From NCBI RefSeq assembly GCF_029223865.1, contig NZ_CP119520.1:1426001-1490000 (forward strand): a stretch of DNA of 64,000 nucleotides, written 5' to 3'. This document shows positions 56,901-60,822 of this stretch, piece after piece. The DNA is from Telluria mixta (GTDB lineage Bacteria > Pseudomonadota > Gammaproteobacteria > Burkholderiales > Burkholderiaceae_D). The position numbers were made by a program, and so were the translations under genes. Within the stretch, counting starts at the first letter, position 1. Every line of letters starts with the position of its first letter. The notes below the pieces were generated by a model. That model searched no databases and was not told the origin of the DNA. It saw only the letters and a program-made list of their open reading frames with translations.

Positions 56901-57353
56901 TTACTTGTCGCCCACGTGACGGGGTAATTGCAGGATCGCTTCCGCGTTCGACGCAGAGAAGCACCGATCTGCCGCTTCCAACAACGGCAGCCATGCATAT
57001 TGCAAGTGCTCGCGCGGCGCGAGGGTGATCGGGATGTCGCGCGGGACGCAGACGGAGAACACGTGTTCCGTGTTGTGGGTGACGCCGGGCGCGTAGCGGT
57101 GGCGCCAGGTCTGGTAGATCTCGTAGATGTTCGACAGATGCCAGTCGACGAGGACGATCTTGTCGCCGTCGGCGACAATGCCCGTTTCCTCGAACAGTTC
57201 GCGCGTGGCCGTTTCCAGCAGCGGTTCGTCGGGATGGTCGAGGGACCCGGTGACGGATTGCCAGAAGCCGGGTCGGTCGGCGCGTTCGATCAGGAGCACG
57301 TCCAGGTCGGCGGTGTGGATAACGACAAGGACCGATTGGGGAATCTTATGCAA
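56901..57353 (-). CDS. nudB: Dihydroneopterin triphosphate diphosphatase (Nudix), TTG start
   Basis: Removes pyrophosphate from dihydroneopterin triphosphate in folate synthesis. The product is 150 residues. It reads IPQSVLVVIHTADLDVLLIE near the start, with the Nudix box GSLDHPDEPLLETATRELFEETGI-like block intact (G..E..REL.EETG). No ATG is available: the first codon consistent with the family is TTG at 57353, directly after the stop of the upstream HNH gene, with AGGA about nine bases before it inside that gene. Related genomes usually have nudB right behind aspS. The inserted gene therefore seems to have replaced its native leader. Confidence 0.88.
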   Translation of the reverse strand: MHKIPQSVLVVIHTADLDVLLIERADRPGFWQSVTGSLDHPDEPLLETATRELFEETGIVADGDKIVLVDWHLSNIYEIYQTWRHRYAPGVTHNTEHVFSVCVPRDIPITLAPREHLQYAWLPLLEAADRCFSASNAEAILQLPRHVGDK

Positions 57354-58901
57354 TTAATTTATCCTAACAGGATTGACATGTACTATACATTCATCGTTCG
57401 GGATAAATTCTACATCAACCTGTCCAGATTGATTCTCAACAATTTTTACGGCCTTCATAGCCGAATAGTCGAGAAGAATTAGTGGAAGCGCGAATTGACT
57501 ACCAAAAATATTTATCAGCGACCCAAATTGTTGCTGCAATTGAAGTGGAGCATATTCACCAAGAATCTTCTCCCTATAGTCAGCTGCCCCTGAGGGGAGT
57601 GCTTCGAATGTTACCGTTATTCCCCCTACCTTCCTTCCTTTCCGCTTTGGCAGCTCGACAAACACATTATAAAGATATTCGATTTCCTTTATCTGATCGC
57701 CTGAGATTCGCAAACCGTCGACAAAGTTTACATCTACGCCAAGAAATTTCAACACGCCCCTCGCATTGCGTATATATCGTAGCATCGCAAATATTGACTG
57801 AGCATCTGACGCTTTTATAAATTCCGCGCTCTCGCCTTTTATTACCTCATCCCCATCCACCTCAAGTATTACCCGAACAGGAGCTCCGCTTGCAGCAGCC
57901 TCATAGAATTTATATATTCGAGAAAAAAATGGAAGCTGAGATAGCAGCTTACCACTCCACAGCGAATAATGATGCTCCAATGTTACCGTAGATTTTTTCC
58001 TTGTATCCTGAGTAAAGTCTACGGTCATCTTAAACGTAAGGTAACCTTCAAATGTGTCACCAACGAACGTTACTGATTTCGCACCACCTATCAAAAATCC
58101 CTTGACGTCGTCGAGCAATACACGTGTCGCGTCGTCATCGCCGATAGACAACTTGCAAACCGCAACCTTCTTCTTTGCAGTTTCAATAACAAGATTGCCA
58201 TTACAGCCGTTATGTAGATCAAAAAGGGGCGAACCTGTTAAGCGTATCGCAGCCGAGTCAATTTCCAGTGCAGTTCCGTGTTCGATTAGGTCAGTGTACT
58301 TCTTTTGAAATTCTTCACCAAAATGTTCGATTACTGTAGCTTGACATATGACATCCTGCCAAGCAGAGAATGTGTAGATTGTTTGACCGGATTTGAATTC
58401 AACATCAACACCAAATCGCGGATCTATCCGCTTTAATTCTTCTGCAGATAATCGACAAATTTCCCCTACGGCGCTAGGTATGCTCTTTTTAGCGATACCC
58501 CCCATAACAACTGCCTTTAAAGCATCGTGTGTTCTTCGCGGTATCGGACTGACTCCCAACTCATCAAGCGCATCCTGCTCAGCCTGCGCTTTCCATGACT
58601 TCAAAAGCCCAACGGTATATTTCGCCTCATCCCTATCGATTAAAGTAGAGCAATTAACGCAGAGCCAAATTGCGTTTAGTATCGATTTGCGTTCATCAGG
58701 AGATTGATTTTCGTCATATCTCGGCCCTCCCTTCGAGGCAGCAGCAATATGAGCCGCAATCCCAATGCAATTTGCGCCCGCTGGAGACAGAGTTGGGCCA
58801 GAAGTGGATACTCTGCATTCAGGATTAGAGCAATGCCCGTTAACTCGCCTCTCGAGTTTCGAGATCACAGGCTTTGGAAAATTGTCTCGCCCAGTCTTCA
58901 T
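57354..58901 (-). CDS. HNH-type zinc-finger nuclease domain fused to a large unknown domain; AT-rich insertion
   Basis: This 515-residue protein is visibly lower in GC than all its neighbours. Residues 1-110 form an HNH-like module: Cys24 and Cys29 in HCSNPECR, His51 in IAAHIAAASKGGPRY, Asn76 in LNAIWLC, and Cys81 and Cys84 in CVNC, then LKSWKAQAEQ. This module occurs as the effector part of several bacterial defence proteins. Residues 110-515 match no family I recognise and look mostly beta-rich with a helical centre. It lies between aspS (behind its terminator) and nudB, and its stop abuts the nudB start. It is probably a horizontally acquired nuclease with a sensor domain. No CD-NTase, helicase or methylase partner is adjacent. 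Confidence 0.8.
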   Translation of the reverse strand: MKTGRDNFPKPVISKLERRVNGHCSNPECRVSTSGPTLSPAGANCIGIAAHIAAASKGGPRYDENQSPDERKSILNAIWLCVNCSTLIDRDEAKYTVGLLKSWKAQAEQDALDELGVSPIPRRTHDALKAVVMGGIAKKSIPSAVGEICRLSAEELKRIDPRFGVDVEFKSGQTIYTFSAWQDVICQATVIEHFGEEFQKKYTDLIEHGTALEIDSAAIRLTGSPLFDLHNGCNGNLVIETAKKKVAVCKLSIGDDDATRVLLDDVKGFLIGGAKSVTFVGDTFEGYLTFKMTVDFTQDTRKKSTVTLEHHYSLWSGKLLSQLPFFSRIYKFYEAAASGAPVRVILEVDGDEVIKGESAEFIKASDAQSIFAMLRYIRNARGVLKFLGVDVNFVDGLRISGDQIKEIEYLYNVFVELPKRKGRKVGGITVTFEALPSGAADYREKILGEYAPLQLQQQFGSLINIFGSQFALPLILLDYSAMKAVKIVENQSGQVDVEFIPNDECIVHVNPVRIN

Positions 58902-58960
58902 CTCATCAAATAAAAACTAAAAATACAAATTACCGAAACTGCAAAGCTAACCACTCAACA

Positions 58961-58997
58961 AAAAAGGGCTCCCGTTAACCCATAACAGGAGCCCTTT
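58961..58997 (-). terminator. Terminator of the fmdB-DUF502-aspS transcript
   Basis: On the minus strand AGGGCTCC pairs with GGAGCCCT (8 bp), extendable by GTTA/TAAC, followed by TTTTTT. It lies 22 bases after the aspS stop and separates aspS transcription from the HNH gene. The other strand has a weaker T run, so it may act in both directions. Confidence 0.85.
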
Positions 58998-59019: not shown

Positions 59020-60822
59020 TTACGCCACTTTCGGCTCGTTACGCAGGCGGATATGCAGCTCTTTCAGCTGCTTCTCGTCGACTTCCGACGGCGCGTTGGT
59101 CAGCAGATCCTGCGCGCGCTGCGTCTTCGGGAACGCGATCACGTCGCGGATCGACTCGGAGCCGGTCATCAGCGTGATCAGGCGGTCCAGGCCGAACGCC
59201 AGGCCGCCGTGCGGCGGGGCGCCGTATTGCAGGGCGTCGAGCAGGAAACCGAACTTCAGCTGCGCTTCTTCCGCATCGATCTTCAGCGCGCGGAACACCT
59301 TGCTCTGGACTTCTTCGCGGTGGATACGGATCGAGCCGCCGCCCAGTTCCCAGCCGTTCAGGACCATGTCGTAGGCCTTGGCGATGCAGGCGCCCGGGTT
59401 CGTCTCGAGCATGTCTTCGTGGCCGTCCTTCGGTGCCGTGAACGGGTGGTGCGTCGCGTTCCAGCGGTCGCCGTCTTCGTCGTACTCGAACATCGGGAAG
59501 TCGATGACCCACAGCGGCGCCCAGACGTCGTCGAACAGGCCGGCCTTCTTGCCGAATTCCGAGTGGCCGATCTTCACGCGCAGCGCGCCCATCGAGTCGT
59601 TCACGACCTTGGCTTTATCGGCACCGAAGAAGATCAGGTCGCCGTCTTCGGCGCCGGTCAGTTCCAGCACCTTGGCCAGGACGTCGTCCGAGATGTTTTT
59701 CACGATCGGCGATTGCAGGCCGTCGCGGCCCTTGGCCTTCTCGTTGACCTTGATGTAGGCGAGGCCCTTGGCGCCGTAGATGCCGACGAATTGCGTGTAC
59801 GCGTCGATTTCCGAACGCGGCATCGAACCGCCCTGCGGCACGCGCAGGCCGATGACGCGGCCGCCCGCCATGTTGGCGGCGTTGTTGAAGACCTTGAATT
59901 CGACGGTCTTCATCAGCTCCGTCAGTTCGGTGAACTGCAGTTTCACGCGCATGTCCGGCTTGTCCGAGCCGTAGGAGCCCATGGCGGTGGCGAAGTCCAT
60001 CACCGGGAACGGATTCGGCAGGTCGATGCCGGCGGCGTTCTTGAAGACCACGCGCATCATGTCTTCGAACAGGTCACGGATTTCCTGCTCGGTCAGGAAC
60101 GACGTTTCGCAGTCGATCTGGGTGAATTCCGGCTGGCGGTCGGCGCGCAGGTCTTCGTCGCGGAAGCACTTGGTGATCTGGTAGTAGCGGTCGAAGTTGG
60201 CGACCATCAGCAGCTGCTTGAACAGCTGCGGCGACTGCGGCAGCGCGAAGAAGTTGCCCGGGTTGACGCGCGACGGCACCAGGTAGTCGCGCGCGCCTTC
60301 CGGCGTGGACTTGGTCAGCATCGGGGTCTCGATGTCGATGAAGCCCAGGTTGTCCAGGTACTTGCGCACTTCCATCGACACCTTGTAGCGCAGTCGCAGG
60401 TTGTGCTGCATCTGCTGGCGGCGCAGGTCGAGCACGCGGTGCGTCAGGCGCGTGGTTTCCGACAGGTTGTCGTCGTCCAGCTGGAACGGGACCGGCACCG
60501 AAGCGTTCAGCACTTCCAGCCTGGTGGTGTTGATCTCGATCTTGCCCGACTTCAGGTTGGCGTTGGCAGTGCCCTCCAGGCGGTTCACGACGGTACCCGT
60601 CACGCGCAGGCAGTACTCGTTGCGCACGTGCTCGGCGACCTTGAAGACCTCCGCATTGTCGGGGTGGCAGACGACCTGCACGAGACCTTCGCGATCGCGC
60701 AGGTCGATGAAGATCACGCCGCCGTGGTCGCGACGACGGTGCACCCAGCCGCACAGGCTGACGGTTTGGCCCAGCAGCTCTTCGGTCACGAGGCCGCAGT
60801 AGTGAGTACGCATGGAGGACAT
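59020..60822 (-). CDS. aspS: Aspartyl-tRNA synthetase
   Basis: Class IIb synthetase of 600 residues, the bacterial type with a GAD insertion. It has an N-terminal OB-fold anticodon domain ([20 protein letters not shown]). Class II motif 2 is [19 protein letters not shown] and motif 3 is [13 protein letters not shown], with the flipping-loop region [11 protein letters not shown]. The C terminus is complete. The start is taken at 60822 ([10 protein letters not shown]); the ATG at 60813 is equally possible. It lies downstream of DUF502 and fmdB in what appears to be one transcript. Confidence 0.96.

Follow-up and report, generated by a model that had tools for sequence, protein, structure and literature searches.

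Locus and gene composition

The window analysed here is a 64,000-nucleotide stretch of the Telluria mixta genome (contig NZ_CP119520.1, positions 1,426,001 to 1,490,000), in which a single gene is wedged between the housekeeping genes aspS and nudB (Table 1). This gene, referred to as the HNH-AbiGii gene, encodes an N-terminal HNH nuclease module followed by a C-terminal region of about 400 residues that resembles AbiGii. AbiGii is an old and poorly understood phage-resistance protein, the lactococcal AbiGII belonging to AbiG, an abortive infection (Abi) system described in the 1990s.

The HNH-AbiGii gene is foreign by composition. Its GC content is 44.3%, with a GC fraction at third codon positions (GC3) of 0.39, against 63.5% and 0.90 for aspS, 62.0% and 0.82 for nudB, and 70.2% and 0.89 for a GGDEF gene. 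Among the 47 non-overlapping open reading frames (ORFs) of at least 100 amino acids in the window, GC is below 58% only in this gene and in an ORF that overlaps its end, and the ATA codon, which occurs 35 times per thousand in the gene, is absent (0) from aspS and the GGDEF gene. The gene is present as a single copy in the T. mixta genome. An earlier sequence-only reading had already described a 515-residue gene of clearly lower GC than its surroundings, bounded by the aspS terminator and the nudB start, and both descriptions agree with the present analysis, in which the two flanking genes were identified through PDB matches. The interval given in that reading (to 58960) spans the sequence between the stop codon and the vicinity of the terminator; the start of the gene is at 58901.

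Table 1. Features of the aspS–nudB locus, in positions of the window.
Feature	Position	Strand	Basis or content
HNH-AbiGii-like gene	57354..58901	-	ORF, ATG start, 515 aa including Met, stop codon included
HNH / zinc module, residues 1–116	58554..58901	-	C24, C29, H51, N76, C81, C84
C-terminal AbiGii-like region, residues 117–515	57357..58553	-	hhalign profile comparison
Best-supported AbiGii match stretch, residues about 364–515	57357..57812	-	hhalign and hmmsearch
aspS terminator-like hairpin, upstream boundary	58963..58997	-	15 pairs and T tail
aspS, upstream housekeeping gene	59020..60822	-	best PDB match Asp-tRNA ligase, E 1.4e-242
nudB, downstream housekeeping gene	56901..57353	-	PDB match dihydroneopterin triphosphate diphosphatase, E 4.6e-25

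A conserved HNH module with many C-terminal partners

The first protein search returned 33 full-length rows, one of them the window's own, and the 32 relatives align at 22–51% identity. Loci taken from GTDB genomes, IMG/VR and plasmids were added to give an alignment of 80 rows. Going by record titles, the loci come from Burkholderiales, Gammaproteobacteria, Desulfobulbaceae, Geomonas, Sulfuricurvum and Cyanobium. Mean pairwise identity over the 80 rows is 50% in the HNH part and 22% in the remainder, with 31 of 115 columns at least 90% conserved in the former and 5 of 399 elsewhere. A conserved HNH part joined to a divergent C-terminal part fits an effector coupled to a sensor that is engaged in an arms race. 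The protein cluster PHROG 29098 (function not known) matches residues 2–407 (E 1.4e-44), covering the HNH module and much of the C-terminal region, but ends about 100 residues before the end of the window protein.

All six residues listed for the zinc module in Table 1, which had been named in the sequence-only reading, are each at least 90% conserved in this alignment. The fold and the zinc and AHI residues of the N-terminal HNH are as in Cap5, its closest match, and the Cap5-type effector identity proposed earlier is supported by domain matches, the zinc cysteines and the catalytic His. The identification of the module as a nuclease follows from this homology. In the CBASS defence system, Cap5 is an HNH-SAVED protein whose SAVED domain binds a cyclic nucleotide. 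The window protein, on the other hand, is matched by the PADLOC SAVED_HNH models at residues 7–110 only, and no SAVED model in PADLOC matched any of 50 C-terminal sequences of the family at E 0.1. No CD-NTase gene adjoins the HNH-AbiGii gene, its flanks being aspS and nudB, and SMODS (PF18144), the one model used for CD-NTases, found no match in the whole T. mixta genome and matched 4 of 14 control genomes.

The same N-terminal module is found in PADLOC PDC-M68A and in P2-EC46 ORF2, whose gene carries the annotation lysogenic conversion. In Yersinia phage 31.17 the match overlaps a gene annotated likewise. All of these matches end at residue about 115. A survey of HNH fusions in the loci set yielded 146 proteins with the module, of which 140 have at least 40 residues behind it. 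When linked by phmmer at E 1e-4, these fell into 34 C-terminal groups, with 57 proteins in the group of the window protein and 83 in 33 others (193–1474 aa). The number of other groups is indicative, since the set is limited to the best 80 of 340 in one search and includes some loci more than once, and remote links may have escaped detection. These roughly 33 other groups occur in prophages and genomes (L091, L093, L098–L120 and others; L numbers denote loci).

The C-terminal region resembles AbiGii

The sequence-only reading had left about 400 C-terminal residues as unrecognised, but profile comparison suggests that they are AbiGii-like. Relatives of AbiGii were gathered with the PADLOC AbiGii model and by tblastn, giving the abiG operon proteins of S. 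salivarius and Lactococcus (L185, L193), L187 and L181, and further AbiGii-like genes in L182, L188, L186, L194 and L195. Pfam AbiGii_2 recognises L193, L185, L187 and L188 above its cut-off (L188 at 31.9 vs 25 bits), and PADLOC AbiGii recognises the three targets scanned (L182 at 1.4e-13, L188 at 4.9e-13 and L186 at 8e-10, model positions 15–355 of 378).

A profile of 50 family C-terminal sequences (A3) was aligned by hhalign with all eight AbiGii-like proteins at E 1.4e-6 over 299 columns, and with an AbiGii-like alignment (A5) at E 6.6e-7 over 154 columns. Narrower sets gave E 1.7e-6 (L186, L194 and L195) and 0.0023 (L182 and L188). These two sets align with each other at E 8.1e-9 over 386 columns, and A5 aligns with the AbiG-operon set (A6) at E 4.6e-7. 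The best of 43 decoy families against A3, A5 and A6 reached 0.10, 0.13 and 0.11, respectively, and reversed alignments 0.38–0.63. In an hmmsearch of A3 against 1868 sequences (931 real ORFs, reversals and six AbiGii, with the database size set to 24736), L186 ranked first (E 2.6e-6) and L188, L187 and L182 took ranks 3–5 (E 0.24, 1.7 and 4.4). Among the relatives of the window protein, P0006 is matched by PADLOC AbiGii (E 3.2e-4), its residues 382–481 aligning to model positions 234–323, an offset that is expected if the whole of AbiGii equals the C-terminal region. The region is also similar to AbiGii (PF16873, PDLC02332) in length (about 400 aa), with a colinear profile match.

Several observations weigh against this homology. 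By direct scan the window protein matches no Pfam family, and PADLOC AbiGii is absent from its matches; the latter model matched none of nine other relatives scanned alongside P0006 and just 2 of the 50 C-terminal sequences (best 1.8e-4), and AbiGii_2 matched 2 of 33 relatives, with E values no better than 0.03 and below its cut-off. In the hmmsearch of A3, a reversed decoy ranked second (E 0.19), and L185 and L181 were missing from the list. The comparison of A3 with AbiG-operon AbiGii is weak, at E 0.066 (0.028 with L181 added), little better than the best decoy. On the AbiGii side, L182, L186, L194 and L195 do not match Pfam AbiGii_2, and L194 and L195 are tied to AbiGii through their likeness to L186 only. 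Upstream of residue 364 the match is covered by the wider comparisons only, and a comparison of residues 118–514 with solved folds gave no row well above background. Taken together, homology to AbiGii appears well supported for the last 150 residues and likely for the whole C-terminal region.

The window protein nevertheless differs from AbiGii in being fused to a nuclease, and in having aspS upstream instead of AbiGi. By Pfam scan, lactococcal AbiGII has no HNH domain; it belongs to an abortive infection system, and Pfam labels AbiGii_2 a putative toxin. This could be taken to mean that two effectors are combined in one chain, with the AbiGii-like part as the toxic arm and the HNH sensing or binding DNA, or with both acting. 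We regard this as rather improbable. The C-terminal part has only the five columns at 90% noted above, unlike most enzymes, and no AbiGi-like ORF was found in related loci when a five-protein AbiGi profile was run against ORFs of at least 80 aa (best E 2). In addition, when proteins of the lactococcal two-gene Abi systems were cloned one at a time, AbiEii was reportedly the only one to inhibit E. coli, and neither AbiGi nor AbiGii did so (PMC3985639). This lack of inhibition is more in keeping with a regulator than with a toxin.

AbiGii-type genes were also seen within or next to type I restriction loci (L187, L186), a setting shared by the HNH fusion in L175. In L187, abiGi-abiGii lies between HsdS-like and HsdR-like ORFs, as judged by eye. 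Just upstream of an AbiGii-like gene lies a small ORF (L182:2967-3464, minus strand) that has an EAKK motif and is nuclease-like by eye, but gives no Pfam match.

Arrival at the aspS–nudB junction

A search for nudB in 61 genomes was successful in 60, of which 37 belong to the same genus, the window's own included. From these, 30 loci were obtained, again counting the window's own, and seven same-genus genomes gave no locus. Both flanks are present in 28 of the 29 other same-genus loci (L130 stops short of aspS), and none of the 28 carries the HNH-AbiGii gene. Because the gap of 55–529 bases is too short for it in all 28, the gene is a recent arrival at this site, and the junction comparison that had been proposed thus indicates that it is not kept there in relatives. 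The profile of the protein matches 19 of 294 genomes of the taxonomic family, mostly in the HNH part alone (in G150 at positions 306–360 only), and the full-length protein is found in 3 of the 294, the window's own counted. The spread of the gene is patchy.

The earlier suggestion of an integration hotspot is weakly supported. The junctions of L133 and L139 (gaps 529 and 403), two of the 15 same-genus junctions read, contain a small ORF pair that is DUF4160/DUF2442-like by eye, but no recognisable defence gene was found in any of the 15. The site accepts small inserts now and then, and "hotspot" is too strong a term.

The fit of the gene to its site is tight. Its stop codon, TAA (57356–57354), abuts a TTG at 57353, with which the nudB frame opens as its first start codon, and an AGGA motif (57365–57362) lies within its last codons; nudB is therefore probably translated behind the foreign gene. 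In the junctions read in 15 relatives, the codon at this place is ATG in 12, GTG in one (L132) and TTG in two (L133, L139). Relatives of the HNH-AbiGii gene may be coupled to a needed gene in a similar way. By eye, L024:3447-6160 overlaps a recA-like ORF by 4 bases, and L006:9096-12940 sits between tyrA-like and aroA-like ORFs.

Genomic neighbourhood of the relatives

Across 51 loci, the 463 ORFs lying up to five places away include no recurrent neighbour, the largest cluster occurring in 4 loci, which is consistent with the earlier proposal that the gene acts singly. In 47 of 49 loci the AT content of the gene exceeds that of its flanks, and in 42 the difference is more than 5 points. A Pfam scan covered ten neighbours, selected by eye in 8 loci, and a PADLOC scan covered seven of these, a chosen sample that gives no count of enrichment. 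Pfam identified tyrosine integrases (L002, L085), TniB and TniQ (L004), a sacsin-type ATPase (L013), a KAP NTPase (L045), AAA_15/AAA_21 ATPases (two genes in L056), an RT-TIR protein (L073) and a caspase (L003), and PADLOC returned TniQ, TmtA, PDC-S49, AriA/GajA, Ppl and a type XII retron, with nothing for the caspase. In annotated records, the Sulfuricurvum copy is surrounded by a type I restriction operon, and the Acidovorax copy has IS21, an integrase and iteA nearby; the P. veronii copy is near an SOS-associated peptidase and conjugation genes. The Acinetobacter copy, on the other hand, is among metal-resistance genes, and several relatives lie amid housekeeping or metal-resistance genes, which counts against a role in defence. 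Many other loci have ordinary genes. Defence or mobile neighbours are thus seen in some of the relatives.

A gene that is solitary, AT-rich and inserted exactly between two others, with integrases or Tn7-like genes adjoining some of its relatives, might also be a homing-type or element-borne nuclease serving its own spread, without a defence role. This seems very improbable, as the sites vary with no single fixed target (aspS–nudB here, and the L006 and L024 sites described above by eye), the closest match of the HNH is Cap5, a defence nuclease, and the C-terminal part is AbiGii-like. Somewhat less improbable, yet still unlikely, is modification- or sequence-dependent restriction, in which the C-terminal module would read foreign DNA for the HNH to cut, in a type IV-like manner that requires no cell death. 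No DNA-reading domain was recognised among the weak Pfam and PADLOC matches, the AbiGii of AbiG operons has no nuclease domain by Pfam, and restriction genes were seen by eye within two places in few loci.

Proposed function and implications

The HNH-AbiGii gene is, on balance, best interpreted as encoding a horizontally acquired single-gene anti-phage protein, composed of an HNH nuclease and an AbiGii-like sensor. The N-terminal HNH would be a Cap5-type, metal-dependent DNA nuclease, and the AbiGii-like C-terminal region would sense infection, in the form of a phage protein or a nucleic acid state, and keep the nuclease off until then. Upon sensing, a pair of HNH modules may be rearranged, so that DNA is cut and the infection aborted. 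We infer the sensing role from the divergence of the C-terminal region, its few fixed residues, the many C-termini found behind one HNH, and the result reported for singly cloned Abi proteins (PMC3985639).

As predicted from these comparisons, HNH-AbiGii would be a new variant of single-gene nuclease defence, and the interpretation in the sequence-only reading is thus partly supported and made more precise. A broader and more tentative possibility, somewhat doubtful at present, is that AbiGii is not a toxin but a founding phage-sensing module, acting via a partner in AbiG and via a fused Cap5-type nuclease here. The HNH would then be the common effector for dozens of interchangeable sensors, in a large and for the most part undescribed single-gene immune class that parallels CBASS without a second messenger. 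The HNH-AbiGii fusion itself would link AbiG to a nuclease effector of known structure and make the mode of action of AbiG testable in one protein. It is also a sign that HNH proteins form a modular class, in which many C-terminal sensors are yet to be explored.
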